Shown one piece after another: positions 11,577 to 37,648 of a stretch of 64,000 nt of DNA. The notes under the pieces were generated by a model, which was not told the origin of the DNA, made no database searches, and saw nothing but the letters and a program-made list of their open reading frames with translations. Each line of letters opens with the position of its first letter. Position 1 is the stretch's first letter. Made by a program: the position numbers and the translations under genes. Origin of the DNA: Pseudomonadota bacterium (lineage in GTDB: Bacteria; Desulfobacterota; Binatia; UBA9968); assembly GCA_021324155.1 (NCBI GenBank), contig JAJPJQ010000038.1, forward strand, positions 19,904 to 83,903, in the 5' to 3' direction.

Positions 11577-12293
11577 ATGGCCGGAAAACCAGACCGCTTG
11601 GCCCGGCTAGTCGCAGCGCTCGATCATCCCGATAAAAAAATCATCCGCGAAGCCGTTGACGCGCTGGTCGCGCTCGCGCCGAGCCAGCCGGAGGTCGGCG
11701 GCGAAGTCGAGGCCGCGTTAATGCGGGCGCCGGTCTATAAACGCTGGCCGATGGCGTACGTGCTCGCGCAAATCGGGCCTCCGTCCGACGCGTGCTTCGC
11801 GGCGCTGGAGGGTGGATTGGACGCGCCCGATCCCGATATCCGCTGGGCGATCGTCGTGCTTTTCGCGCGGCTCGCAAGGGAATCAGGCGGAGCGACGCGA
11901 GAGCGGCTCGCGTCGCTTGCCCGCTCCGGCACGGCCACGCAGCGGCGCATGGCGATTTACACTCTGCGGGACATCGGCCCCGCCGATGCGCTGGCGCACG
12001 AGGCGGTGCGCGGCGCGCTCGCGGACACCGATCCGCTCGTGCGCGTCGCCGCTTTAACGAGTCTCAAAGTCTTTCCCGAAATCGCCCGCACCGCGGTCGG
12101 CGACATGCAGCGCATGCTGGAAAGCGACGACGACGCGCGCGTCCGCGCCGCCGCCGCCGTCGCGCTCGCACAAAGCGGCGCGCCGATGGCGGAGATTCGC
12201 GGCGCGCTGGAAGGCTCCGCGATGACCGGCGATCCGACGGTCGTCCGCGCCGTTCGCGCCGCGCTGGAGATGCTGGGGAAGAAGGCGACTTAG
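11577..12293 (+). CDS. HEAT-repeat protein
   Basis: A 238-residue alpha-solenoid protein with five or six HEAT-like units (for example LVAALDHPDKKIIREAVDAL, ALADTDPLVRVAALTSL and MLESDDDARVRAAAAVAL). Such proteins are scaffolds or phycobilin-lyase-like, but no catalytic residues are visible here. It begins four bases after the histidine kinase stop, so the two are almost certainly co-translated. It may relay or tether the kinase signal; that is inference. No signal peptide. Confidence 0.8.
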   Translation: MAGKPDRLARLVAALDHPDKKIIREAVDALVALAPSQPEVGGEVEAALMRAPVYKRWPMAYVLAQIGPPSDACFAALEGGLDAPDPDIRWAIVVLFARLARESGGATRERLASLARSGTATQRRMAIYTLRDIGPADALAHEAVRGALADTDPLVRVAALTSLKVFPEIARTAVGDMQRMLESDDDARVRAAAAVALAQSGAPMAEIRGALEGSAMTGDPTVVRAVRAALEMLGKKAT

Positions 12294-12396
12294 ATTACAG
12301 AGCTACGAGAATTGTCACATTGACATCAGAATGAGTCACAAAGAAAGTCTTTTTCTGTGACCGGCATCATCCTTCCTCAATATAGGGTTTTTCCCT

Positions 12397-12413
12397 GATT
12401 GTTGTAAACAATC
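12397..12413. promoter_or_regulatory. 17-bp palindrome in AT-rich gap upstream of large exported protein
   Basis: GATTGTT-3-AACAATC is a perfect 7+3+7 inverted repeat about 135 bases before the start of the 1193-residue exported protein. It looks like a dimeric-regulator operator. A second, imperfect hairpin (GTCACA near 12335, TGTGAC near 12361) lies 40 bases upstream and may end the preceding operon. The rest of the 12294-12546 gap is AT-rich with no gene. Confidence 0.4.
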
Positions 12414-12546
12414 GTCTTCATTTAGATTCCCAAACTTAAAAGCGCAGACGAGCTCTTCTTCGCGGCCATCCCCCTGACCTTCGAAAAAGCGCACGGGCTG
12501 AAGAATCTACTGGCGTCTCGAAAAACCCCGGGAGGAGGATCGCTGT

Positions 12547-15500
12547 ATGGGTGTGCGAAGATGGTGGATACTCGTTGGCATTCCAACGATTGTGCTGGGA
12601 TTAACTACATTGACACTTGCCGGTAACGTTAAGCCACCTGTTAATCCGGGATGGATTGAAAAGACAGACAGCGACGGCATCAGAATTAGACAAGATTCGC
12701 CGCTAGGAGCAAAAAATGCGAAACGTTTCGTTAAAGGAAAAGGCAAGCCGATATACTTTCCTGCGCCTTACAATACACTCGGTGTACGGCTCACCGACAA
12801 CAGTGACTGTCCTGGCAATACCGACTGCATTAGCTACGTGGGTTACTCATATTGGCGCAATACTAACAACCATGTCAATGATCCAACTATGCTGATTTTT
12901 ATCGGTGTAAACGGAAATGCGACGCTGTATCAATTTAATAAGACAACCAGGGCCGTCACGAATCTAGGAGAAGTCTTAGATCCGACAAGTAAGGGTCAAT
13001 TGAGCGGAGGGCCTCAAAACGGTTTGGGATGGTACTTCAGTGCGACATTATCAAAAACTATTTACCTGGATAATAGCGCTTTTCCATATACGACGGCCCC
13101 CCCCGACCTGATACAGTTCAATGCGACCAAACGAAAGCTATACCGCTACGATTTGAACAATCCGGTTCTCGTTCCCGTTTTCGACATCAACGATTATTTC
13201 AATAATGTTCCTGGTGCTACGGGTGATAAATACATTACTCAATCGCATTCAAGCAACGATGACAAAGTCCATTCCGCTTCGGTTGTGTGTCCAATAGCTC
13301 AAGCGGTGACGTGCCATGATGGTACGCGCACCGCCACTTTTCCACACGTAGATGCGAGGCAGGATGCGCCTGACGAGGTTATGGGGTGCATCGTCTATAA
13401 CGAGAGAACAACACCACCAACGTTTCTATATTTCCCTCGAAAAGGCGACACGATAACAGAAGGCGGTGTGCAAAAGATCAAGGCCATGAATGAATGCCAT
13501 GTGGACAAAAGCGGCAACTGGCTCGTAATTATCGAAAACGAAATTGTTGATACGACAAGAGACGTCACGATCGTGGACAACCGTATCATCAATTTACTGG
13601 CCTCAGATCCCGAGCTTCATGCAGGGGTTACGCTCAAATACACGGATGCGGCCAACTTGAAAGGCACCTGGTCGGCCAGCACGACCTACACCGCTAATGA
13701 CATCGTCTCCTTCGGCGGCACGTCCTACATCTCTCTTCAGGGAACGAACCTAAACCACCAACCCGACCTCTCGACTACGTGGTGGCAAACCGCGCCCTTT
13801 GGTTCAAGAGGTCACTTGGATACCGGTTTTGGATACTTAGCGGGTGGAGGAGCCGAAATCGACCCGCTGTTCGGATCGATCCCCGGCGTCGAGCGTATCG
13901 TCGGTCTGGATCAAAATCCTCTTATAGACGGACCTGTCGCTTACCACGACATAAGTTTTGACGGTGGAGCTGCAAACCATGTGAGTCACAGCAATGCAAA
14001 AGACACCAACGTCACTCCTCGCGAGCAACAACACGCCTGCGCAAGTAATGGCATAGAAAAGGCCAATGCCGCTCAGCCTCGCTCAGACGAAATCGTTTGT
14101 TTTCGCTTAGATCAATCAGGTGATGTTTTGGTCGTCGCGCCGACAATGGCAAGCATACGCGATAACGGAGGTGGACAGGCCGGCGATCCGACTGATACGT
14201 ATGGTCGATATCCGAAGGGAAATTTGGATATTACTGGTAAATATTTCATTTGGACCGCGAACATGTTCGGGGACCGCCTAGATGCCTTTCTGGTCGAAGT
14301 GCCATCGGATTTGTTAATCGGCGACACAAATCCCGGGCCTATTCCTGTGGACTGGACGGTGCACGACGTCGGCGATGCAAATGATGGCACGGGAACGCAG
14401 CCCACGCACGCAAAAGATACTTTCACGATACCTGTAGCGTCGTCGCAGGTAGGTGGCGCATCCGCGCCTGGATCGGATAACTTTCGCTTCATTTTTAAAA
14501 CACTAAATGGCGACGGCCAAATCGTGGCCCAAGTCGGGAGCCTGCTTAAGAAGACCTCCACAGGTGCAAATCAAGATCCTTTGGAGAGAGCCGGCGTCAT
14601 GATCCGCGAGACACTTGACCCTGACTCTAAGCACGCCTTTATGGCGTTGACGTGGTCCAAAATCCAAGGAGGCTGTTTTCAGACGCGGACATTTAGTGGA
14701 GTAGATGCTAGCGCCTGCACGGCTTTTAAAAGCATCGAAGCTCCTTACTGGGTAAAGCTTGTACGGAAAAACGGAACCTTTACAGGATACGTTTCGAGTG
14801 ATGGGGTGAAGTGGTCAAAAGTTGCGAAAACCAACATAACGATGACCACAAGCGTATTGATTGGCTTAGCGGTGACAAGCAATATGCAGCAAAACGATCC
14901 GGAGAACCCCATAACACCTACGGAACCGACACTGGCAACATTTAGTCGCGTATCTGTTACAGGCAATATAACGACAACTGGTGTGGAACTTCTCGCCGGT
15001 ACAGAGACTTGGGAATACGAAGATGTCGGCAGCGTCGGCGTAGCGGGTACGTCGACTTATACGAATGGCACTTACACCGTTAAGGGGTCCGGCGCGGACA
15101 TTGCCGGCACAGCAGATGCTTTTCAATTTCTGTATCGTACTGTCAATTACGACGCGACGATCATCGCACGTGTCACGGCTGTGCAAAATACGAATGCCTG
15201 GGCAAAAGCAGGGGTTATGATCCGCGAGTCGACAGATCCTGACGCACCCTTTGCCATGATGATGCTGACGCGCGGCAACGGCACGTCATTCGAACGCCGC
15301 GTAGAGACTGGAAATACAGCTACGTTGACCACACCAGCGGATGGTCGGACCGCTCCATATTGGGTGAAGCTCGTAAGGCAGGGTATGACGTTTACCGGCT
15401 ATAAATCGAGCGATGGCGTTAACTGGGTGCAAGTAGGTACCGATACAATTTCGATGCCAAGCGCCGTCCAGGTCGGATTAGCGGTAACTTCGCACAACAA

Positions 15501-28192: not shown

Positions 28193-31100
28193 ATGGCCGC
28201 TGGAAAATACACGGATACTTTCAGGCTTCCGGGCTTCGCCGCCTTTTTCTGGACACAGTTTCTCGGCGCGTTCAACGATAATTTCTACAAGATGGCCGTC
28301 TCGCTCGTCGCGCTGAACGCCGTCGTGAGCGGCGCGGGCGGCTTTTACGTCGACCTCATTGCGCTGCTGTTCATCCTTCCGTCGGCGCTGTTTTCCGGCT
28401 ACGCCGGCCACCTAGCCGACGTCTACAGCAAAAGACGCGTGCTCGTCTCGGTGAAAGTGTTCGAGATCTTCGTAATGGCGCTCGCATTGATCGCCTTCGC
28501 GACCGGCGGCATCGATCCGATGCTCGCGATCGTTTTTCTCATGGGCGTGCACACGGCATTTTTCAGCCCGGCGAAATACGGCATTCTCCCCGAGATGGTT
28601 CCGAACGCAGATCTCTCGCGCGGCAACGGCCTCCTGGAGATGAGCACGTTTGTCGCGATCATTCTCGGCACATCGCTCAGCGGTCCCATCTACATGGTAT
28701 GGAAAGACCGGCCGGCATGGATCGGCGTCCTGCTGGTGGCGATCGCCGTGATCGGCACATGGACGAGCCTCGGGATTCCCAGAGTACCGCCGGCGTCCAC
28801 CGCGTCGCGGCGGCTGCGGCTCAATCCCTTCGGTGAGATCTGGGAGGGCATGAAGCGGCTCTATCCCGATCGCGCGCTCTGGCTGACGGTCCTCGGGATT
28901 TCCTATTTTTGGTTTGTCGGCGCGCTCGTGCAGCTCGATACACTGTTCTTCGGCAAAGAGCTGCTCGCGCTCGACGAATCGCACATCACGCTGCTGGGAA
29001 CTTTCCTCGCGATCGGCATCGGCGTCGGCAGCCTCGCTGCCGGCCGCCTCTCCGGAGACAAGGTAGAACTGGGCCTCGTGCCCGCGGGCTCGATCGCGAT
29101 GGGCATTTCCTTGGCGCTGCTCGCCTTCACGGGCCACTCTTACGCCGCGACCGCAGCGGCGCTGATCGCTCTCGGTTTTGCCGGCGGCCTTTTCGCCGTG
29201 CCGCTGAACGCGCTGCTGCAGCAGCGCAGCGGCCGCGATGAGAAAGGCCGGCTCATCGCCACCAACAATTTCCTCAATACGCTGGCGATCGCGCTGGCCG
29301 CCGGCGCGCATTGGCTTTTACGCAGCGCGCTCGGCCTCGCTCCCGACCGCATCGCGCTGCTGCTCGGAGCGTTTACGCTCGCAGCGACCGTGGTGGTCTT
29401 GCGGCTGGTGCCGGATTATTTCGCGCGTTTCGCCCTGTGGCTGCTCACGCATACGATGTACCGCATCCGCATCGTCGGCCAGGAGCATGTGCCGCTGCGC
29501 GGCCCGGCACTGCTGGTCTGCAATCACGTCTCCTTCGCCGACCCGCTGCTGGTCGGCGCGTCCGTGCAGCGCTTCATCCGCTTCATGATGTACGCGCCCT
29601 ATTACGAGATGCGTTCGATCAATTGGATTCTGCGTCTGATGAAGGCGATCCCGGTTTCGGCGCGCAGCCGGCGGGAGACCGTCGAATCGCTCAAGCGGGC
29701 GCGCGAGCAATTGGCCGAAGGCCACGTCGTGTGCATCTTCGCCGAGGGCGGCATCAGCCGCACGGGCAACCTGCTGCCGTTCAAGCGCGGCTTCGAAAAG
29801 ATCGTCGAAGACATGAACGTGCCCGTCATTCCGATCCATCTCGACCGCGTCTGGGGCAGTATCTTCAGTTTCAAACAAGGCCGTTTTTTCTGGAAGCGGC
29901 CCGAGCGGTTTCCCTATCCGGTGACAATCTCGTTCGGCGCGCCGCTGCCGCCGTCCGCGACGGCGCACGACGCGCGTCTAGCGGTCGCGGAGCTGGGGAG
30001 CGCGGCGGCGCGCTACCGCCGCGGGCCGCGCGAGACGCTGCCGCTGCGCTTCATCCAGACCGCGAAGCGCCATTGGTTCTCGTTCTGCATGGCGGACTCG
30101 ACCGGGCGCGCGCTCACCTACGGCCGGGCGCTCGTCGCCAGTCTGCTGCTCGCGCGGAGGCTCAAAGAAAAATGCGCCGGCGAGCCGATGATCGGCCTGT
30201 TGTTTCCGGCGTCCGCCGGCGGCGCGCTCGCGAACCTCGCCGTCTCGATCGCGGGCAAGACGGCGGTGAATTTGAATTTCACCGCGGGCGCCGAGGCGCT
30301 CGAACAGGCGCGGCAGCGCTGCGGCATCAAGACGATTCTCACTTCGCGCCAGTTCCTCGCTCGCACAAAGCTCGCGAAAGTCGACGGCATGATCGATCTC
30401 GAAGAACTGCTGAGCGACCTCAAGCCGAAGGAGAAAACCCGGGCGGCCGCGCGCGCGTTTATTTTGCCTGCGCACTTCTTGACGCGGATTTACGGCGACG
30501 ACAAGCTTGGCGCCGACGCCCTCGCCGCGGTGATTTTCTCCAGCGGCAGCACCGGCTCGCCGAAGGGCGTCATGCTCTCGCACGACAACGTGCTTTCCAA
30601 CATCGAATCGTTCGCGCAGCTCTTCCACGTCTCGCCGGAGGACCGCATGCTCGGCGTGCTGCCGTTTTTCCATTCCTTCGGCTTCACCGGCACGCTGTGG
30701 TTTCCGCTGATCACGGGCTTCGGCGCGGTCTACCATTCGAATCCGCTCGACGGCAAAACCATCGGCGAGCTCGCCGAAAAATACCGCGCGACGATCCTCA
30801 TCAGCACGCCGACGTTTTATGCGGCGTACCTGCGGCGAATTTCGCGCGAGCAATTCATGACGCTGCGCTACGCGGTCACCGGCGCGGAAAGGCTGCGCGA
30901 GTCGATCGCACGCGAATTCAAGGAAAAGTACGGTCTCGATCTCCTCGAAGGCTACGGCGCGACCGAGATGAGCCCGGTGATCTCGGTCAATATCCCGGAC
31001 GTCGCCGACGGCGCTGAGCATCAGACTGGCATGAAATCCGGCACCGTCGGCCATCCGCTGCCGGGAGTGGCGGCGAAAGTCGTCGATCCGGACACCGGCG

Positions 31101-31600
31101 CGCCGCTGCCGGCGAACGCCGAGGGATTGCTGCTCGTCAACGGGCCGAATCGGATGATCGGTTATCTCGACGACGCGGAGAAAACGCGCGAGGTCTTCCG
31201 CGACGGCTGGTATGTCACGGGCGACATCGCCGCGATCGATGACGACGGCTTCATCCGCATCACCGACCGCGCATCGCGCTTCAGCAAGATCGCCGGAGAG
31301 ATGGTGCCGCACGTCAAGATCGAAGAGACCGTGAATGAGATTTTGGGCGAGCGCAGCTCCGTCGTGGTGTCGGTCCCCGACGAGCAAAAAGGCGAGCGGC
31401 TGATTGTGCTGTATTCGCACCCGGGTTTTACGCCGGCGGAGCTTTGGGATAAGCTCTGCGAAACCGCGCTCCCGAGGCTCTGGATTCCGCGACGCGAAAA
31501 TTGCTTTCAGGTCGAGAGCCTCCCGGTGTTGCCGACGGGAAAAGTGGATTTGCAAGAAGTCAAAAAGCTGGCGGCGGAGTATTCGGAGAGCCGGACGTGA
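28193..31600 (+). CDS. LplT-PlsC-Aas fusion: lysophospholipid flippase / acyltransferase / acyl-ACP synthetase
   Basis: A 1135-residue protein joining three activities used to salvage or remodel phospholipids. Residues 1-405 form a 12-helix MFS domain like LplT (DNFYKM, FFSPAKYGILPEMV). Residues about 415-630 form a PlsC-type acyltransferase with NHVSFAD (H(x4)D motif near 443) and FAEGGISRTGNLLPFKRGFE. Residues about 640-1130 form an AMP-binding acyl-activating domain with SSGSTGSPKG (near 781), EGYGATEMSPV, YVTGDIAAIDDDGFI and the terminal PTGKVDLQ lysine. E. coli splits these between LplT and Aas. Here it may load acyl groups onto the carrier proteins of the cluster; that is inference. Confidence 0.92.
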   Translation: MAAGKYTDTFRLPGFAAFFWTQFLGAFNDNFYKMAVSLVALNAVVSGAGGFYVDLIALLFILPSALFSGYAGHLADVYSKRRVLVSVKVFEIFVMALALIAFATGGIDPMLAIVFLMGVHTAFFSPAKYGILPEMVPNADLSRGNGLLEMSTFVAIILGTSLSGPIYMVWKDRPAWIGVLLVAIAVIGTWTSLGIPRVPPASTASRRLRLNPFGEIWEGMKRLYPDRALWLTVLGISYFWFVGALVQLDTLFFGKELLALDESHITLLGTFLAIGIGVGSLAAGRLSGDKVELGLVPAGSIAMGISLALLAFTGHSYAATAAALIALGFAGGLFAVPLNALLQQRSGRDEKGRLIATNNFLNTLAIALAAGAHWLLRSALGLAPDRIALLLGAFTLAATVVVLRLVPDYFARFALWLLTHTMYRIRIVGQEHVPLRGPALLVCNHVSFADPLLVGASVQRFIRFMMYAPYYEMRSINWILRLMKAIPVSARSRRETVESLKRAREQLAEGHVVCIFAEGGISRTGNLLPFKRGFEKIVEDMNVPVIPIHLDRVWGSIFSFKQGRFFWKRPERFPYPVTISFGAPLPPSATAHDARLAVAELGSAAARYRRGPRETLPLRFIQTAKRHWFSFCMADSTGRALTYGRALVASLLLARRLKEKCAGEPMIGLLFPASAGGALANLAVSIAGKTAVNLNFTAGAEALEQARQRCGIKTILTSRQFLARTKLAKVDGMIDLEELLSDLKPKEKTRAAARAFILPAHFLTRIYGDDKLGADALAAVIFSSGSTGSPKGVMLSHDNVLSNIESFAQLFHVSPEDRMLGVLPFFHSFGFTGTLWFPLITGFGAVYHSNPLDGKTIGELAEKYRATILISTPTFYAAYLRRISREQFMTLRYAVTGAERLRESIAREFKEKYGLDLLEGYGATEMSPVISVNIPDVADGAEHQTGMKSGTVGHPLPGVAAKVVDPDTGAPLPANAEGLLLVNGPNRMIGYLDDAEKTREVFRDGWYVTGDIAAIDDDGFIRITDRASRFSKIAGEMVPHVKIEETVNEILGERSSVVVSVPDEQKGERLIVLYSHPGFTPAELWDKLCETALPRLWIPRRENCFQVESLPVLPTGKVDLQEVKKLAAEYSESRT

Positions 31601-32163
31601 GCTCAGCCGTCCTAGTCCTCTGTTGCTTGAATTTCGCCGCCGTCGGCGCGCTGCCCGCGGTGTTTTTTAGGAAAGACGGCCGCTTCAACGCGCTTTGGTG
31701 GCTTACCGCCGCGCCGTTTTTCCTCTGCCCGCCGGTTCTCCTTGCGATTTTTCTCGGTTATTTATCTCCGTTCGCGAACGGAACTTTGCAGGCGCTCTTT
31801 GAGCTTGTATCGGTCTGCTTCAGCACCGCCTCGCTGGCGTTGCTCTTTTTCACGCTGGGAACGCACCACATTCCCATCGCGCTCTGGCATCAAGAAAACG
31901 ACGCGCCGCGGCATATCGTCATGTACGGCGCGTACAAGCGCATTCGCCATCCGTTTTATGCTTCGTTCCTACTCGCATTCATCGGCGCTTTTTTGGCGGC
32001 GCCCCATTGGACGACGCTGACGCTCCTCGTTTATGCCTTCTCGATACTGAATTTCACCGCCTCGAAAGAGGAGGCGCGCCTGCGTCAATCCGCCTTCGGC
32101 GCTGAATATGAGACCTATATGCGAAACGCGGGACGCTTCTGGCCGAAATGGATCGACGCATGA
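31597..32163 (+). CDS. Isoprenylcysteine/phospholipid methyltransferase-like membrane protein
   Basis: A 188-residue integral membrane protein with about five helices and the ICMT/PEMT C-terminal signature: YGAYKRIRHPFYASFLL followed by SKEEARLRQSAFGAEYETYM. Family members methylate a carboxyl, amine or phenol of a membrane-bound lipid using SAM. The start is GTG at 31597, overlapping the acyltransferase stop as GTGA. It overlaps the KASIII-like gene by four bases. The context suggests methylation of a lipid product of the cluster; no substrate can be named. Confidence 0.82.
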   Translation: MSSAVLVLCCLNFAAVGALPAVFFRKDGRFNALWWLTAAPFFLCPPVLLAIFLGYLSPFANGTLQALFELVSVCFSTASLALLFFTLGTHHIPIALWHQENDAPRHIVMYGAYKRIRHPFYASFLLAFIGAFLAAPHWTTLTLLVYAFSILNFTASKEEARLRQSAFGAEYETYMRNAGRFWPKWIDA

Positions 32164-33128
32164 GGACGAGCGAAATCCTTGTCGATCATTTCTCTGTCGC
32201 CCTCGGCGAGTCCACGTTTACCGTCGATGACGCCGCCCGCGCGGGCAAGACGGTCTCTTCACCCGCGACGCTGAAGGAGTCCGGCTTCCGACTGCATCAC
32301 GTGTGCGGGGCCGGGACGACATCCTACGATCTGGCTTACCGCGCGGTGAACGAGATCCGCGGCGCGCTCGGTGATATCGGCGCGGTCGTGTACGCGACGT
32401 GCATTCCCGCCAACGGCAATGTGGGCGAAGAGAAAAAATTCCGCGACACCGGGGATGTCAAGCACCTGATGAATTTTCCCGCGAGCCGGTTGCAGTCGGC
32501 GTTCGCGATGGAGCGTGCGGTCGTGATCGGCCTCAACCAGCAGGCCTGCACCGGCATGCTCGGCTCGCTGCGGTTGGCGCGCATGATGCTCACGGAGGAG
32601 CCGGAGGTCGGCCGCGTTCTCTGCCTCACGGCTGACCGCTTTCCCGAGGGCGCGCTCTACGAACAATCATACAATCTCGTCTCCGACGGCGCGGCGGCCT
32701 GCGTCGTCTCACGCGGGCCGGGCGGTTTCCGTCTGCTGGCATGCCACGGCATCACGAACGGGGCGCTCGCCGTCGCCTCGGACGACGAAGTCGTGGGAAG
32801 TTATTTCAGCTACACGTATCGCGTCGTCCAGGAAACGCTGGCGAAGGCGTCGCTCGCCATCGGCGAGATCGATTGGATCGTGCCGCAGAACACGAATATC
32901 AAGGCGTGGCAGATCCTCGCACGGCTGCTCAAGTTCGACTTCGCGCGGGTCGCGATGCCGACTCTCGGCGACGTCGGCCATATGATCAGCGGCGACAACA
33001 TCGCCAATCTCAAGCGGCTGATGGAGGAGAAGAAAATCCGTCCGGGCGAGCGCGTCCTGCTCGTCACCGCCGGCTATGGCCTCAACTGGCAGTGCGCGAT
33101 CCTGGAAAGCGCGGCGGAAAATGGCTGA
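32160..33128 (+). CDS. KASIII-like enzyme (3-oxoacyl-ACP synthase III family) with altered catalytic residues
   Basis: A 322-residue thiolase-fold protein. The nucleophile is kept: C130 in NQQACTGMLGSLRLAR. The usual histidine of the PHQAN motif is replaced (VPQNTN, Q243), and where FabH has asparagine in GN(T/S) there is histidine (GHMISG, H274). Decarboxylative condensation may therefore be changed or lost, and acyl transfer or ester/amide formation is possible, as known for other KASIII-like enzymes. Start ATG 32160 overlaps the upstream stop as ATGA. It is distinct from the housekeeping FabH at the left edge and sits just before the diiron oxygenase, with an 8-base overlap. Confidence 0.85.
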   Translation: MRTSEILVDHFSVALGESTFTVDDAARAGKTVSSPATLKESGFRLHHVCGAGTTSYDLAYRAVNEIRGALGDIGAVVYATCIPANGNVGEEKKFRDTGDVKHLMNFPASRLQSAFAMERAVVIGLNQQACTGMLGSLRLARMMLTEEPEVGRVLCLTADRFPEGALYEQSYNLVSDGAAACVVSRGPGGFRLLACHGITNGALAVASDDEVVGSYFSYTYRVVQETLAKASLAIGEIDWIVPQNTNIKAWQILARLLKFDFARVAMPTLGDVGHMISGDNIANLKRLMEEKKIRPGERVLLVTAGYGLNWQCAILESAAENG

Positions 33129-33984
33129 GCTCAAGAGAACGGTCGAAAGGCTGTCGGAAATTTCGCGTAAGGAGTTTGCCGACCCCTATACTGCCTTGCG
33201 CGACTGGCCCGAGCGGCTCGATCCCGATCAATGGTTTACGAGCCCCGAATTCATCTCGCTCTGCGGCACCGAGGAATACGAGAGGCTCGCGCAGACCGAG
33301 AAAAAACGGCTGAGCTTTTTAGAAGCTGTCAATTTTTATAGTTTAAACATTCACGGGGAAAAATCGTTGATCGAAGGGTTAGCGCGGCGGCTCTACAGAA
33401 AGGACGACGAAGACCTCGCTCCGTACCTGCATCACTTCCTCGACGAGGAAAATAAGCACATGATCTATTTCGCCGCGTTCTGCGAACGATACGCCGGAAA
33501 GATTTATCCGGACAAAAAGCTCGCCTTTCCCCGCGATTACGCTGACGGCGAAGAAGACTTTCTGTTCTTCGCCAAGGTGCTCGTCTTCGAGGAGATCGTT
33601 GACGTGTACAACGTCCGCATGTCGCAGGACGCGAAGCTGGACGCGGTCGCGCGGCAGATCAACGCGATGCATCACAGAGACGAAGCGCGGCATCTCGTCT
33701 TCGGCCGCCAGGTTGTCAAGGAATTGTTTCAGCGCCACGCCTCGAAGTGGCCGCGCGAAGTGCTGGACGGCGTGCGCAGCTATTTATGCGACTACATCGT
33801 CGCGACGTGGCGGGAATACTACAACGCGGACGTTTACCGGGACATGGCCTTCGACGATCCGCGGGGCCTGCAGCTGAAGGCGTTTTCGCATCCCGTTCAG
33901 AAGCGGCAGCGTCAAACCGTCTCCGCCGGCTGTCTCCGCTTTCTCGTGGACAGCGGCATTTTGCCGGAAGAGCCGACGCTATGA
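33121..33984 (+). CDS. AurF-like diiron oxygenase
   Basis: A 287-residue non-haem diiron protein related to AurF, whose members N-oxygenate amines or hydroxylate carrier-bound substrates. The AurF ligand pattern is present: a likely E80, E110-x2-H113 (DEENKHM), E157 or E158 (FEEIVDVY), H184, E188 and H191 (HHRDEARHLV), with the H-x3-E-x2-H spacing of AurF. ATG 33121 lies inside the KASIII-like gene. The stop overlaps the carrier-protein start as ATGA. Immediately next to a carrier protein and an amino-acid ligase, it most likely oxidises a carrier-bound aminoacyl or acyl group. Confidence 0.85.
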   Translation: MAELKRTVERLSEISRKEFADPYTALRDWPERLDPDQWFTSPEFISLCGTEEYERLAQTEKKRLSFLEAVNFYSLNIHGEKSLIEGLARRLYRKDDEDLAPYLHHFLDEENKHMIYFAAFCERYAGKIYPDKKLAFPRDYADGEEDFLFFAKVLVFEEIVDVYNVRMSQDAKLDAVARQINAMHHRDEARHLVFGRQVVKELFQRHASKWPREVLDGVRSYLCDYIVATWREYYNADVYRDMAFDDPRGLQLKAFSHPVQKRQRQTVSAGCLRFLVDSGILPEEPTL

Positions 33985-34241
33985 AGACCGAAACCGAGGT
34001 TCGCCGCGCCCTGCGCGAGTGGGTCATTCGCACCAACGGCAAGATCGCCGCGGACGCGTTGACCGACCGGACGCCGATCATCGAGCAGCGCATCGTCACG
34101 TCGCTGCAGATAACCGATCTCTTGCTGTTTCTCGAAGAGCTCACCGGCCGCGCGATCGACGTGGAAAAATTAAAGCCGGGAATCTTCCGCGACATCGACG
34201 CGATCTATGAAAACTTTTTTGGGAAAGCCGATGGCGTCTGA
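33981..34241 (+). CDS. Acyl/peptidyl carrier protein (first of two)
   Basis: An 86-residue four-helix carrier. The phosphopantetheine serine is S41 in IVTSLQITDLLLFLEELTG; the usual DSL is TSL here. The following LxxxxxEELTGRxID helix-2 pattern is typical of ACPs. The product is acidic and small. ATG overlaps the diiron gene stop, and the coding end overlaps the ligase start by 11 bases. Carrier proteins beside aa:CP ligases lack the standard features of fatty-acid ACP. A phosphopantetheinyl transferase three genes on could activate it. Confidence 0.82.
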   Translation: MKTETEVRRALREWVIRTNGKIAADALTDRTPIIEQRIVTSLQITDLLLFLEELTGRAIDVEKLKPGIFRDIDAIYENFFGKADGV

Positions 34242-35100
34242 ACGATCAATCGATTGGAACCTCCTCCCGGGATACCGCTGGCATGAGAACGGCCAATCGA
34301 CTTTCAGCGGCGCGCCGTTAAAGCTTTATCAAAAACTCGACCGCCTGTTTCTCCAATGGGCCGGCGAGCGCGGCGCCGCCGAGCATCGCTTCCCGACTTT
34401 CATTCCGGCGCGCGAGCTCGACCGGCTGGACTATTTTCGCTCCTTCCCGCACCTCGTGACCTTCCCGGTCACGCTCGATCCGTCGAAAGACAATCTCGCC
34501 GCGTTCGTTCGCGGGGCACCGCTCGACGACGCAGGACATCTTCAACTTGCGGCGAGCGCCCCGATTGCCGACGTGCTGACGCCTGCCGCCTGTTATCACT
34601 TTTATATTCAATTCCAGGACGAGCGGCTCGCGCAGCCGAGGTACGTCACGACGCGCGCCACCTGCTTTCGCCGGGAGGATCATTACGCGCCGTTACAGCG
34701 CCAGTGGAGCTTCTCAATGCGCGAGATCGTCTGTCTCGGCACGGCGGATGAGGTCAAGGCGTTTCTCGCCGGCGGCCGGGCGACAGTAGAAGGCTTTTTC
34801 AAGAAAATCGGCCTGCCCATCGAATGGCAAAACGCCACCGATCCATTTTTCGAGCCGGCGCGGAGTTCGAAATATCTCATGCAGAAACTCGATCCGGTCA
34901 AGATTGAAATGGTTTTCAACGGCGATCTCGCGATCGGCTCGGTCAATTTTCATCGGAATTACTTCGGCGAAGCATTTCGCATCACGCGCGCGGGCGCCGA
35001 CGCTTATTCCGGCTGCATCGCCTTCGGCGTAGAACGATGGATATTCGCATTTTTAACGCACTTCGGAACCGACGAGGCTGGCTGGCCCGTTTTGACGTGA
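34231..35100 (+). CDS. Amino acid:[carrier protein] ligase (atypical seryl-tRNA synthetase homologue)
   Basis: A class II synthetase-fold enzyme that, in characterised homologues, activates glycine or alanine with ATP and loads it onto the phosphopantetheine arm of a carrier protein instead of tRNA. The 289 residues lack the tRNA-binding arm of SerRS. Class II motif 2 is visible (ATCFRREDHYAPLQRQWSFSMREIV), as is motif 3 (GCIAFGVERWIFAFL). Zinc ligands match the known Cys-Glu-Cys set: C121 (TPAACYHFY), E165 and C262. KLDPVKIEMVF is also characteristic. ATG 34231 is preferred over 34207, which would add a poorly conserved extension. It lies directly after its likely carrier partner. Confidence 0.9.
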   Translation: MASERSIDWNLLPGYRWHENGQSTFSGAPLKLYQKLDRLFLQWAGERGAAEHRFPTFIPARELDRLDYFRSFPHLVTFPVTLDPSKDNLAAFVRGAPLDDAGHLQLAASAPIADVLTPAACYHFYIQFQDERLAQPRYVTTRATCFRREDHYAPLQRQWSFSMREIVCLGTADEVKAFLAGGRATVEGFFKKIGLPIEWQNATDPFFEPARSSKYLMQKLDPVKIEMVFNGDLAIGSVNFHRNYFGEAFRITRAGADAYSGCIAFGVERWIFAFLTHFGTDEAGWPVLT

Positions 35101-35104
35101 GTTC

Positions 35105-36217
35105 ATGAACGCGGAATCGAAGACCGTTCTCATCACCGGCGGCGACGGTTATTTGGGATCGAGCCTCGCGGCAAGCTACCTTGAGAGCACAGACGCGTCC
35201 CTCATCCTTTGGCTCCGAGCCGGCGGCGCGGAGGAATTCGAAAATAAAAAGAGCGCGCTCCAGCGCCGTTTCGCGGGTCATGCCTCGCGCCTGAGCTACG
35301 CCGCGGGCGATCTGCTGGACGATGAGCCTTTCCGTGCGCTCGATCCGCGCGGGATCGGCGGCATCATTCACGCCGCAGCGGTCACACGATTCAACGTCGA
35401 CGAGACGACGGCGCGCGCGGTGAATCTGGAAGGTGCGTGCAAGCTCTTTCGATTCGCCACGGGCTGTCCTTCCCTGGAGGCCTTCGGCCTTCTCAGCACC
35501 GTTTACGCCTCGGGGCTCGCTCCGGGAGCCATCGCGGAAGCGCCGCTCGACGACGGCCACGGCTTCTCGAATTTTTACGAATGGTCGAAGTGGGCTTCGG
35601 AAGCCGCCTTGTTGAAACACTTCGGCGATCTGCCGTGGCGCATCTTCCGCGTCGCAACGATCATCGCGGACGACGAGCGCGGAACCGTACGGCAGCAAAA
35701 CGCGTTTCACAATACGCTGAAGCTTTTATATTACGGGCTGCTCTCCGTGATGCCCGGACTGCCCGAGACGCCCCTGTATTTGCTGTCGGGAGAATTCGTC
35801 AGCCGCGCGATCTTTGCCTTGATGCGCAGACCGTCGAACCGCGTCATTTACCACGTGTGCCATAAGCGGGAGGAAGCACTGCCGCTCCGTGACCTCGTCG
35901 ACATCGCTTTCGAAGTGTTTTCTCAGAGCGAAGACTTCAGGCTGCGCAGAATTTTGAAACCTCTCTACGCGGACCTCGGGTCGTTCGAGCTGCTGGCCGA
36001 CGGCGTCGAGAAGTTCAGCGGCGCCGTTGTCAGCCAGGCGGTCGCGAGCGTCGCGCCGTTCGCGCGCCAGCTCTTCATCGACAAAGATTTAAAAAATACC
36101 AACCTGACGGCGGCGCTCGGCCGTTATCCGGACCCCGAATTGCGGCGGCTCGCCGCCGAGACCTGCCGCCGTTTGGTCGAAAGTCGCTGGAAACCGCACG
36201 GCCATGACGCTCGATGA
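35105..36217 (+). CDS. NAD(P)-dependent thioester-reductase-like SDR protein
   Basis: A 370-residue extended short-chain dehydrogenase. It has the nucleotide-binding TGGDGYLG (11-18), GIIHAAAVTRFN and the catalytic Y158-x3-K162 (FYEWSKWASE), with a serine at the LLSTVYASG strand. It resembles the reductase domains that release carrier-bound thioesters as aldehydes or alcohols (NAD_binding_4), although an epimerase or ketoreductase is possible. The start is four bases after the ligase stop. It overlaps the phosphopantetheinyl transferase by 14 bases. Confidence 0.8.
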   Translation: MNAESKTVLITGGDGYLGSSLAASYLESTDASLILWLRAGGAEEFENKKSALQRRFAGHASRLSYAAGDLLDDEPFRALDPRGIGGIIHAAAVTRFNVDETTARAVNLEGACKLFRFATGCPSLEAFGLLSTVYASGLAPGAIAEAPLDDGHGFSNFYEWSKWASEAALLKHFGDLPWRIFRVATIIADDERGTVRQQNAFHNTLKLLYYGLLSVMPGLPETPLYLLSGEFVSRAIFALMRRPSNRVIYHVCHKREEALPLRDLVDIAFEVFSQSEDFRLRRILKPLYADLGSFELLADGVEKFSGAVVSQAVASVAPFARQLFIDKDLKNTNLTAALGRYPDPELRRLAAETCRRLVESRWKPHGHDAR

Positions 36218-36833
36218 GGCAAAGCTTGAGGTGGTGTTGAGCGAGCGGCTTGCAACACCTGTGAAAACCGCGGCCGCTCGCGAACCATTGCCTGCCGCGG
36301 CTCTGACCGACAGGGAATCAGATCGTCTGTTGAAATTCGAATCAGCGTCGAGGCGCGTCGAATGGCTCACCGGTCGGGCCGCGCTCAAACGCCTGCTTGC
36401 CGTGCTGGGCGAGGATGAGGATACTTCGAAGATCGATTTTCCGTGCGCGCGGATTTCTCTCACGCACAGCGGCGATTGCGCGCTCGCCGTGGCTTCACTT
36501 GCGCCTTCGCGCGGCATCGGCGTCGATCTGGAAAGGTATCGCGACGTCCATCCCGGCGTGGCGCGTTTTTTTCTCAATGACAAAGAACGGTGCTGGTGGA
36601 GCGAGATGGACGAATCGGAGCGCTCGCGGGAGCTGCTGCGCCTGTGGACGGTGAAGGAGGCGTTGTTCAAATCGCATCCGTATAACCATGATACGATGCT
36701 CGCTGATTACGCCGTCGAAAATCCCGCACAGCATACAGGCCGCGCTCGGCTGGACGGCGCAAAGGCCGCGACGCTGCGCTACGCCTCTTTGATTTTCCCC
36801 GATGCCATGCTCTCCGCGGCGATGTGTTTCTAA
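36204..36833 (+). CDS. Sfp-type 4'-phosphopantetheinyl transferase
   Basis: Transfers phosphopantetheine from CoA to the serine of carrier proteins. The 209 residues show the three family signatures: SLTHSGDCALAVAS, GIGVDLERYRD (metal-binding D-x-E) and LWTVKEALFKS (WxxKEA). The Sfp type is typical of secondary-metabolite pathways rather than of the housekeeping AcpS. It overlaps the upstream reductase and ends just before the ferritin-like gene; TAAAGGAG precedes that gene. Its presence in the run is strong evidence that the two neighbouring carriers are modified by a dedicated enzyme. Confidence 0.92.
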   Translation: MTLDEAKLEVVLSERLATPVKTAAAREPLPAAALTDRESDRLLKFESASRRVEWLTGRAALKRLLAVLGEDEDTSKIDFPCARISLTHSGDCALAVASLAPSRGIGVDLERYRDVHPGVARFFLNDKERCWWSEMDESERSRELLRLWTVKEALFKSHPYNHDTMLADYAVENPAQHTGRARLDGAKAATLRYASLIFPDAMLSAAMCF

Positions 36834-36845
36834 AGGAGTTTCAAG

Positions 36846-37418
36846 ATGCTGGACGAAAACGAGCTCTGGGTCCTCAGTTTTTATCGCACTTCGGAAATCA
36901 GCGGAGCGCTGTTTTTCGGCAACCTCGCGAAATCGATGAAGCCGGGATCGATCCAACGCGACATGACGAAGCATTTTTCCGACGAGGCGATGCACGCGTG
37001 GCATTGGAGCTCGTGCATCGAGAAGCTCGGCGCCCAGGCGCTAAAGCTGACCGAAGCCTATCAAGACCAATACGTTGCCGCTGCGGGAATGCCGGTCAAT
37101 TTGATGGAGGTCCTCGCCATCACGCAGGTCTTCGAGAAGCGGGTGATCAACCAATACGCCCGTCACAGCCGGATCCCCGGCATCCTACAAGAAGTCAAAG
37201 AAACGCTCGCGACAATTATGGCGGACGAGTCGTGGCATATCGAATGGGTGCAGGCGGCCTTGAAAGAAATGGAAAAAGAATACGGCGCCGACTTGATCGT
37301 TCAAACTCTGAAAAGATTCCGGCAGGCGGATGAAGAGGTCTATCAAAAGACGATAAAAGAGCACGAGGCACGCGTACTCCACCTGACGGACCGCTACAGA
37401 GCCGGAGGAAAAAAATGA
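36846..37418 (+). CDS. Ferritin-like diiron four-helix protein
   Basis: A 190-residue helical protein with a complete diiron set: E17 (SEISGALFF), E47-x2-H50 (SDEAMHAWH), E97 (QVFEKRV) and E128-x2-H131 (ADESWHIEW). This E, ExxH, E, ExxH order is that of ferritin-like oxidases, oxygenases and rubrerythrin-type proteins. AAAGGAG lies before the ATG. It is flanked by the phosphopantetheinyl transferase and a second carrier protein, which overlaps its stop as ATGA, so it may act on that carrier's cargo as a second oxidation step, or protect the cluster's enzymes from peroxide. Confidence 0.82.
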   Translation: MLDENELWVLSFYRTSEISGALFFGNLAKSMKPGSIQRDMTKHFSDEAMHAWHWSSCIEKLGAQALKLTEAYQDQYVAAAGMPVNLMEVLAITQVFEKRVINQYARHSRIPGILQEVKETLATIMADESWHIEWVQAALKEMEKEYGADLIVQTLKRFRQADEEVYQKTIKEHEARVLHLTDRYRAGGKK

Positions 37419-37648
37419 TCGACACGACTGTGCTCAGGGAAAATATAGCCAGCTTTCTACGGCAGCCGGTCGCAAAAATCACCGACGAGCGCCTGTTGTC
37501 AGATCTCGTGACGCAATCGTTCATGCTCGTCGAAATGATTATCGAGCTCCAGGAGGAACTCGGCATCCGCCTCGTTCAGGAGGATTTGAAAGACGTTCGC
37601 ACCGTGGGCGATCTGGTTCGAGTGATAGAGCGCCGGAGCGCCAAGTAA
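37415..37648 (+). CDS. Acyl/peptidyl carrier protein (second of two)
   Basis: A 77-residue carrier with the serine at S35 in LVTQSFMLVEMIIELQEELGIRL; the usual DSL is QSF. The C-terminal DVRTVGDLVRVI helix matches ACP helix 4. The start overlaps the ferritin-like gene's stop, making a translationally coupled pair. It is the last gene of the run: 48 bases later an independent promoter for biotin synthase begins. The divergence between the two carriers suggests each holds a different substrate. Confidence 0.8.
   Translation: MIDTTVLRENIASFLRQPVAKITDERLLSDLVTQSFMLVEMIIELQEELGIRLVQEDLKDVRTVGDLVRVIERRSAK

Follow-up and report, generated by a model that had tools for sequence, protein, structure and literature searches.

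The window analysed here is a 64,000-nucleotide stretch of contig JAJPJQ010000038.1 (assembly GCA_021324155.1, named Pseudomonadota bacterium). At positions 31597-37648 it carries a block of nine tightly packed open reading frames (ORFs), all on the + strand, to which families were assigned by Pfam and NCBIfam models. These genes encode, in order, an ICMT/PEMT-like membrane methyltransferase, a KASIII-fold acyltransferase-like protein, an AurF-type diiron oxygenase, carrier protein 1 (CP1), an amino acid:[carrier protein] (aa:CP) ligase, a thioester-reductase-like short-chain dehydrogenase/reductase (SDR), an Sfp/HetI-type phosphopantetheinyl transferase (PPTase), a ferritin-like diiron protein and carrier protein 2 (CP2). 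Neighbouring genes overlap by 4 to 16 bases, with two gaps, of 4 bases before the SDR gene and 12 bases before the ferritin-like gene. An earlier sequence-only reading of the window had described nine genes overlapping by 4-14 bases. The domains are present as it named them; the overlaps range slightly wider and are broken by the two gaps, and the methyltransferase and CP1 assignments are weak. That reading had also noted the lack of a nonribosomal peptide synthetase (NRPS) or polyketide synthase (PKS) module, and none was found among the nine genes.

Conservation and distribution of the block

The block is collinear in six other genomes, giving seven loci including the window (the others being L009/L022, L003, L004, L005/L021, L015 and L016). 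Three of these were obtained from a ligase scan of species genomes and three more from genome searches; L015 and L016 were found in the phylum of the L021 genome. L009/L022 belongs to G002, a sister genome in the same family as the window's own genome, G000. The record names among the six cover at least three phyla, namely Nitrospirae (L003), Omnitrophota (L004) and Melainabacteria (L005/L021). The genes for the KASIII-like protein, AurF-like protein, CP1, ligase, SDR, ferritin-like protein and CP2 keep one order in all seven loci. All nine genes are present in four loci, the PPTase gene in five and the ICMT-like gene in six, none having been found in L022. The KASIII-like, AurF-like and ferritin-like proteins of the six other genomes are 47-72% identical to those of the window. 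With this identity across genomes and a single gene order, the recurrence of the block is far beyond chance, and the claim of a conserved biosynthetic block holds. The sequence-only reading had named as a case against itself that homologous ligases might never be accompanied elsewhere by the oxygenase and KASIII genes; each of the seven loci that encode a close ligase has these two genes as well.

Among the 55 window ORFs of at least 80 amino acids, only an AMP ligase and weak alpha/beta-hydrolase matches (in L003 and L015) recur outside the block in the fetched stretches of the five non-sister loci. The next gene downstream of the block, after a gap, is bioB, which had no match in the same five stretches (the L003 contig stops about 1 kb past CP2); in G002 it is not visible, the contig ending just past CP2. 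A biotin-type pathway, with a KASIII/BioZ-like enzyme and bioB, was set aside since bioB was not found beside the block in the five non-sister loci.

The block is rare and patchy across the genomes searched. The ligase was detected in 2 of 58 genomes in a search of relatives (its own genome and G002) and in 1 of 297 genomes of its own phylum (its own genome itself). For the phyla to which L004, L021 and L003 belong, the counts were 2 of 193, 3 of 292 and 3 of 295 genomes, centre genomes included, with the block in one, three and one of these, respectively; the remaining ligases in those phyla are 29-31% identical and lack it. At the protein level, relatives at E 0.001 numbered 1218 for the ligase, 1033 for the ferritin-like protein and at least 1472 for the KASIII-like protein, and the best 120 of each are referred to below as the listed relatives. 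Single entries are named Blastocatellia, Terriglobia, Nitrospiraceae and Candidatus Manganitrophaceae, and one name starts with Nostoc. Counting contigs of equal size as the same contig, and taking contigs above 5 kb from these best-120 lists (58 for the ligase, 47 for the ferritin-like protein and 60 for the KASIII-like protein), 15 are common to ligase and ferritin-like protein, 16 to ligase and KASIII-like protein and 9 to ferritin-like and KASIII-like proteins. None of 73 pattern matches in viral contigs was a relative of the KASIII-like protein, and a tblastn search of plasmids with it gave a single weak A. vitis match (23.7%).

The recurring AMP ligase had been missed when the nine genes were taken as the complete set. 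It lies within 6 kb of the block in all seven loci: directly before it in the window, L021 and L016, directly after it in L003, and 4-6 kb away in L004, L015 and L022. In the window it forms part of an Aas-type fusion of MFS, PlsC-type acyltransferase and AMP-ligase domains (28193-31600, + strand; Pfam MFS_1, Acyltransferase and AMP-binding), whose gene shares 4 bases with the ICMT-like gene. In the sister genome, a relative of the ligase domain stands alone (L022:9537-11153, E 1.5e-201). The AMP ligases of L015 and L016 are nearest to fatty acyl-AMP ligase (FAAL) models and that of L021 matches CoA-ligase models best, all below cut-offs. The AMP ligase is likely to be a tenth part of the system, as its acyl-activating partner. 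Exporter families are encoded near four of the seven loci: MMPL near L016 and L022, HlyD-FtsX-ABC near L015 and FtsX/ABC near L021. In the sister genome, a DUF3419 gene, an ORF (12243-13373), a radical SAM-SPASM gene and an MMPL gene lie between the AMP ligase and KASIII genes (L022:11077-16655).

The PlsC domain of the upstream fusion also suggests a different role, in which the block would supply a housekeeping lipid or the head group of a membrane lipid and not a secreted specialized metabolite. The DUF3419 gene, which we take to be BtaA-like, points the same way, as does the location of the block at one syntenic place in G000 and G002, which also share its flanking genes. Such a role is quite unlikely, given the rare and patchy distribution described above and the MMPL or FtsX/ABC genes near four of the seven loci.

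Ligase, carriers and the AurF-like oxygenase

A SerRS-like core with a Cys/Glu/Cys metal site marks the broad amino acid--[acyl-carrier-protein] ligase family, and the block ligase (34231-35100, + strand) has both, together with an adjoining carrier gene. Its best model is PRK07080 (E 1.4e-39), at 135.9 bits against an equivalog cut-off of 357. It is related to Bll0957 (3mey; E 6.8e-30) and keeps the Cys/Glu/Cys, CFRRE and MRE motifs, the Cys/Glu/Cys set being kept in all 120 listed relatives. To our knowledge, most aa:CP ligases have no assigned pathway.

CP1 (33981-34241, + strand) is a predicted aminoacyl carrier. It has no Pfam match, and its weak assignment is based on position and on an invariant Ser in a (T/S)S(L/I) motif (7/7). 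In all seven loci its gene lies between the AurF-like and ligase genes, in line with the suggestion of an amino acid ligase with its own carrier. A hidden Markov model of the seven CP1 sequences finds an annotated acyl carrier protein (ACP) at the equivalent place in the plasmid locus L023 (E 7.2e-10). CP2 (37415-37648, + strand), a predicted acyl carrier, matches PF00550 with 29.6 bits (cut-off 20.8) and has an invariant Ser in 7/7, confirming that a second carrier is present; the ferritin-like gene adjoins it in every locus. The PPTase (36204-36833, + strand) matches PF01648 with 43.1 bits (cut-off 25) and is one of four such matches in the genome. It had been called dedicated, and it is present in the window, although in only five of the seven loci. 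Two PPTase-family matches also lie about 3 kb apart on contig C27 of G000 (168545-172238), with a further KASIII match about 34 kb on (205981-206238); these genes may form another biosynthetic cluster in that genome.

The AurF-like protein (33121-33984, + strand) scores 121.7 bits with the Pfam AurF model (PF11583; cut-off 29.6), and among solved folds CmlI and AurF, both of them arylamine oxygenases, score best. The ligand pattern E80, E110xxH113, E157/E158 and H184xx(D/E)E188xxH191 is present in 7/7, with Glu at the D135 place. The set of three His and four carboxylates (DExxH, HxxDExxH) was recognized by motif rather than by residue-level alignment to AurF, using the rule for AurF-type and CylC-type enzymes given in the available text of PMC12101540. 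According to the same text, QExxH defines the CylC-type diiron halogenases; a halogenase of this type was rejected for the window protein, which has Glu and not Gln at that place, as do all seven. The protein is predicted to be an N-oxygenase, and the description of it as an AurF-like diiron oxygenase is borne out by fold and ligand pattern.

The two diiron enzymes could instead act on lipid. The AurF-like and ferritin-like enzymes would then hydroxylate, desaturate or halogenate a fatty chain held on CP2, and the amino acid would be a head group that is not N-oxidized. CylC, an AurF-like diiron enzyme, is described as chlorinating an ACP-bound decanoyl chain (PMC12101540), FAAL-nearest AMP ligases lie near two loci, and the ferritin-like gene is always beside CP2. 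The AurF-like gene, however, adjoins CP1 and not CP2 in 7/7, and lies beside a CP1-like carrier on the four opened plasmids described below. In addition, the Glu in place of the Gln of QExxH, the retained four-carboxylate pattern and the arylamine oxygenases as top folds argue for N-oxygenation, so that oxidation of the chain is considered unlikely.

Relatives of these genes also occur on plasmids. Records were opened for 12 of the 16 plasmids with an AurF match and 12 of the 87 with a ligase match, four being in both counts; statements on partner genes cover the fetched stretches, 5-12 kb on each side. On all four opened plasmids that hold both, the AurF, carrier and ligase genes lie together. 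They are in the order AurF-CP-ligase in Streptomyces sp. NBC_00335, Tistrella mobilis and Streptomyces sp. NBC_01431, and in the order CP, AurF, nitronate monooxygenase-family gene, ligase in A. vitis F2/5. A nitronate monooxygenase-family gene (PF03060) is found near three of the four and a FlK-type thioesterase gene (PF22636) near two, that of Tistrella being on the opposite strand at a distance of about 2 kb, beyond an MFS gene. FabK, of the same superfamily, is the best NCBIfam match of the three nitronate monooxygenase-family proteins, at 88-121 bits against a cut-off of 453. In T. mobilis (L024:8067-14036) and A. vitis F2/5 (L028:11708-15072), genes for an AurF-like protein, a carrier, an aa:CP ligase, a nitronate monooxygenase-family protein and an FlK-type thioesterase lie close together, and a separate small pathway to an electron-poor acetyl compound is possible there. 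No partner genes were found in the fetched stretches for six AurF relatives (L032-L037) and ten ligase loci (L017-L019, L031 and L038-L043). The Nostoc and Azospirillum AurF genes lie near adenylation-domain or NRPS genes, that of Azospirillum also with a CP1-like carrier.

AurF position 80 (33358-33360) is Glu in the seven core loci and Ile in all six plasmid relatives of the same branch (L023, L024, L025, L027, L028 and L029). It is the sole column in positions 40-260 that is invariant within each AurF group yet different between the groups; the two groups are thus set apart at what is putatively a ligand position. The hint of an electron-poor acetyl thioester given by the plasmid neighbours is not safely transferable to the block because of this Ile at the Glu80 place.

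In the trees, in which several long branches were flagged, the seven core ligases, the four from the plasmid modules and that of S. clavuligerus form a branch (support 98/96) that excludes ten ligases with no AurF gene nearby; for the core ligases alone, support is only 40/22. A clade of the 11 AurF-linked ligases without S. clavuligerus was rejected (p 0.03). Similarly, a branch of seven core and four module AurF proteins with those of Nostoc and Azospirillum has support 93/95 (not starred), and core plus module alone as a clade was rejected (p 1e-13). The S. clavuligerus ligase, nested in the AurF-linked branch, is encoded on a plasmid with a carrier and a PPTase (L026:11908-14092), with no AurF match in the stretch.

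The KASIII-fold protein and the remaining enzymes

In FabH/KAS III, the His of PHQAN and the Asn of GNTSAAS serve condensation. The KASIII-fold protein of the block (32148-33128, + strand; PF08541/PF08545), when aligned to Aquifex FabH (2ebd), keeps the catalytic-type Cys134 but has Gln247 at that His and His278 at that Asn, and so lacks the canonical Cys-His-Asn triad. Cys134, Gln247, Asn248, His278 and Asp283 are invariant in 7/7 loci and in all 120 listed relatives, which all have a Cys134-His278-Asp283 triad of the CerJ/ChlB3/AfcL type. A single-sequence search gave ChlB3, DpsC and CerJ as the best solved relatives, with matches covering the chain only in part, and a seven-sequence profile placed Aquifex FabH first and ChlB3 second. 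The GHxxxxD element aligns with those of ChlB3 and DpsC, and the His-to-Asp spacing equals that of ChlB3. In the accessible account of these enzymes, ChlB3 is an acyltransferase with the triad Cys113-His296-Asp301, and DpsC is condensing (PMC9573744). AfcL, also KASIII-like with a Cys/His/Asp triad, is described as holding a peptidyl thioester and handing it to the amine of Lys-CoA (PMC12186527). Because its Cys-His-Asp triad is as in ChlB3 and AfcL, the block protein is most likely an acyltransferase; a DpsC-type condensing activity would still be compatible with its sequence. The joining role first proposed for it is therefore retained in part, as a likely acyl-joining enzyme with an acyltransferase triad and not a condensing one. 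A housekeeping FabH was rejected, since a protein encoded elsewhere in the genome (C18:19182-19448) scores higher as KASIII (126 vs 64 bits).

Carbon-carbon bond formation, in which the unit on CP1 would be acylated at its alpha carbon without decarboxylation, appears decidedly improbable. An N-oxidized glycyl thioester would have an acidic alpha carbon, which counts in its favour. So does the report that DpsC, among the three best solved relatives, condenses (PMC9573744). Against it, the condensing His and Asn are replaced by Gln and His in 120/120 listed relatives, and the triad is that described for the acyltransferases CerJ, ChlB3 and AfcL (PMC9573744, PMC12186527).

A special form of this chemistry was considered, in which glycine on CP1 would become a nitroacetyl thioester, be C-acylated by the KASIII-like enzyme without decarboxylation and be released by the SDR as a 2-nitro-3-oxo (later amino) long-chain alcohol. 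If true, this would be a carrier-protein path to a sphingoid-like skeleton without a pyridoxal phosphate enzyme, nitroacetyl replacing malonyl; a C16 acyl chain and the two glycine carbons would give the C18 backbone of 3-ketosphinganine. The nitronate monooxygenase and FlK neighbours on plasmids first seemed to support it. This support was weakened because FabK is the best match, because nitronate monooxygenase is also described in three cyanobacterial clusters with CylC-type halogenases (PMC8406957), and because the plasmid AurF proteins have Ile80. We regard it as very improbable.

The SDR (35105-36217, + strand) scores 89.7 bits with PF07993 (cut-off 20.1) and is predicted to carry out reductive release. 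YxxxK is present in 7/7 and GxxGxxG in 6/7, the first Gly being Ala in L004. The ferritin-like protein (36846-37418, + strand) was placed by predicted-structure comparison. Its model, built from an alignment of 28 of the 120 listed relatives and the seven loci, has a predicted local distance difference test score of 89.5; the nearest folds are aldehyde-deformylating oxygenase (ADO), MiaE and VlmB, within about two Z units of each other, the listed matches being ferritin-like proteins, ADO and MiaE among them. Foldseek gave no match for the model at E 0.001 or better. The Glu/Asp/His set is conserved in 119 or 120 of the 120 listed relatives. The family first named for this protein stands, with a fold that appears to be of the ADO/MiaE/VlmB type. 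VlmB is an azoxy synthase according to its PDB title. An ADO-like role beside the predicted aldehyde-forming SDR, or N-oxidation, is possible for the block protein, as judged from its model. The ICMT-like protein (31597-32163, + strand) is a weak assignment, just below the Pfam cut-offs of PF04191/PF04140 (23.7 of 24 and 24.7 of 25) and at 64 of 160 bits with NF040696 (E 1.6e-17).

Proposed pathway

The favoured reading, to which we give a little less than an even chance, is a dissociated pathway free of condensation domains, in which an amino acid on CP1 would likely be N-oxygenated, acylated from the second carrier and, again likely, released by reduction. The reactions, like the identity of the amino acid, of the acceptor atom and of the product, are all predicted here from the observed gene content, order, conservation and catalytic-type residues and from predicted folds. 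The PPTase would prime CP1 and CP2. As its family and gene order suggest, the aa:CP ligase would charge CP1 with an amino acid, which by family is likely glycine, and the AurF-like enzyme would N-oxygenate the tethered amine. The AMP ligase would likely charge CP2 with a fatty acid. The KASIII-like enzyme would accept the acyl group on Cys134 and hand it on, with AfcL as precedent, to the N-oxygenated aminoacyl-CP1, at its N or O; thioester reduction by the SDR would give an aldehyde or alcohol. Tailoring of the product may fall to the ferritin-like diiron enzyme and the ICMT-like methyltransferase, and in some hosts an MMPL (L016, L022) or FtsX/ABC (L015, L021) system may export it. The product is likely a small lipo-amino aldehyde or alcohol with an oxygenated nitrogen, such as an acyl hydroxamate for metal binding or signalling.

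Several observations weigh against this pathway. A PDB profile search with the core AurF set did not reach AurF, which appeared at E 0.2 with a wider set, and the plasmid AurF relatives lack Glu80 (6/6 have Ile), so that two enzyme types may exist. The ligase falls below the aa-ACP ligase model cut-off, which makes glycine a guess from family. The SDR scores 80 bits with the NCBIfam thioester reductase model TIGR01746, below its cut-off of 213. Acyl transfer to N, O or C is not distinguishable by sequence, DpsC being described as condensing (PMC9573744). The Aas-type fusion of the window could serve plain phospholipid recycling, three of the other AMP ligases lie 4-6 kb off, and that of L021 is best with CoA-ligase models. 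Finally, the PPTase is absent in two loci and the ICMT-like gene in one. Overall, the earlier interpretation is partly supported.

In the block, one branch of the aa:CP ligases is found together with an AurF-type diiron enzyme, a KASIII-fold protein whose triad is that of acyltransferases, another carrier and a reductase, in an order conserved across uncultured bacteria. With ten small proteins, it can be tested directly whether this AurF branch acts on aminoacyl carriers, whether a KASIII-fold enzyme can take the place of a condensation domain there, and which lipid the bacteria produce.

Comparison with described systems

A full-text search of open-licence literature found no described cluster with the gene set of the block, which agrees with the earlier claim of no described pathway and is not proof of absence. 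The nocuolin and fragin clusters were considered as candidates, and their contents, as far as described, do not match the block.

The ligase is closest to the Bll0957-type ligases (3mey), with which it has in common its sequence, the three motifs and the adjoining carrier gene. It lies on a separate branch from the ligases of Rhizobium, Azospirillum, Cupriavidus, Methylobacterium and Tsukamurella. Those loci among the five that are annotated have acyl-CoA dehydrogenase or glycosyltransferase neighbours, and in all five the 5 kb flanks gave no AurF match. Among the solved KASIII relatives that share GHxxxxD with the block protein, the accounts available give a sugar hydroxyl as the target of CerJ and ACP as that of ChlB3 (PMC9573744).

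The ham/pvf systems for fragin and valdiazen (HamC/PvfB and HamD/PvfC), in the accounts at hand, share with the block a carrier-held amino acid, AurF-like N-oxidation and a proposed reductase release; fragin (ham) also bears an acyl group, as does the predicted product of the block (PMC5878181, PMC11659414). HamC, an AurF homologue, oxidizes HamD-tethered valine, and the R domain of HamD is proposed to release an aldehyde (PMC5878181, PMC11659414). This likeness is drawn from the descriptions of the pathways. As described, ham/pvf combines adenylation, carrier and reductase in one NRPS-like protein, whereas the ligase, CP1 and SDR of the block are separate genes; the block thus has the AurF-like N-oxygenase without the single adenylation-carrier-reductase chain. 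Acylation in ham/pvf is described as by a starter C domain, in whose stead the block has a KASIII-fold enzyme. According to the same descriptions, ham/pvf has a heme-oxygenase-like enzyme, a cyclase and an aminotransferase, and the block adds a second carrier, a ferritin-like protein and an ICMT-like protein. No Pfam match to the types of HamA (heme-oxygenase-like) or HamE (cyclase/dehydrase) was found among the nine genes.

AFC-BC11 is described as a lipopeptide pathway without condensation domains, with a FAAL (AfcA) and a lone carrier (AfcK) (PMC12186527). In that account it shares with the block the assembly of a lipo-amino acid by separate enzymes, a Cys/His/Asp KASIII-like acyltransferase (AfcL) and an AMP ligase. 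A cluster on A. vitis pRvVAR031a (L030:4938-20624), in which three KASIII-like proteins are encoded alongside carriers, AMP ligases, acyl-CoA dehydrogenases and a P450, recalls AFC-BC11. The sole carrier of AFC-BC11 is loaded by a free-standing A domain (AfcQ), a tri-beta-alanyl chain is built and 25 genes are involved; the part of the report consulted describes no aa:CP ligase, AurF-like enzyme or thioester reductase (PMC12186527). The block, by contrast, encodes two carriers, with an aa:CP ligase in place of the A domain. It resembles ham/pvf and AFC-BC11, each in part of its logic, matches neither, and appears to encode a carrier-protein lipo-amino-acid pathway of differing make-up from those described.

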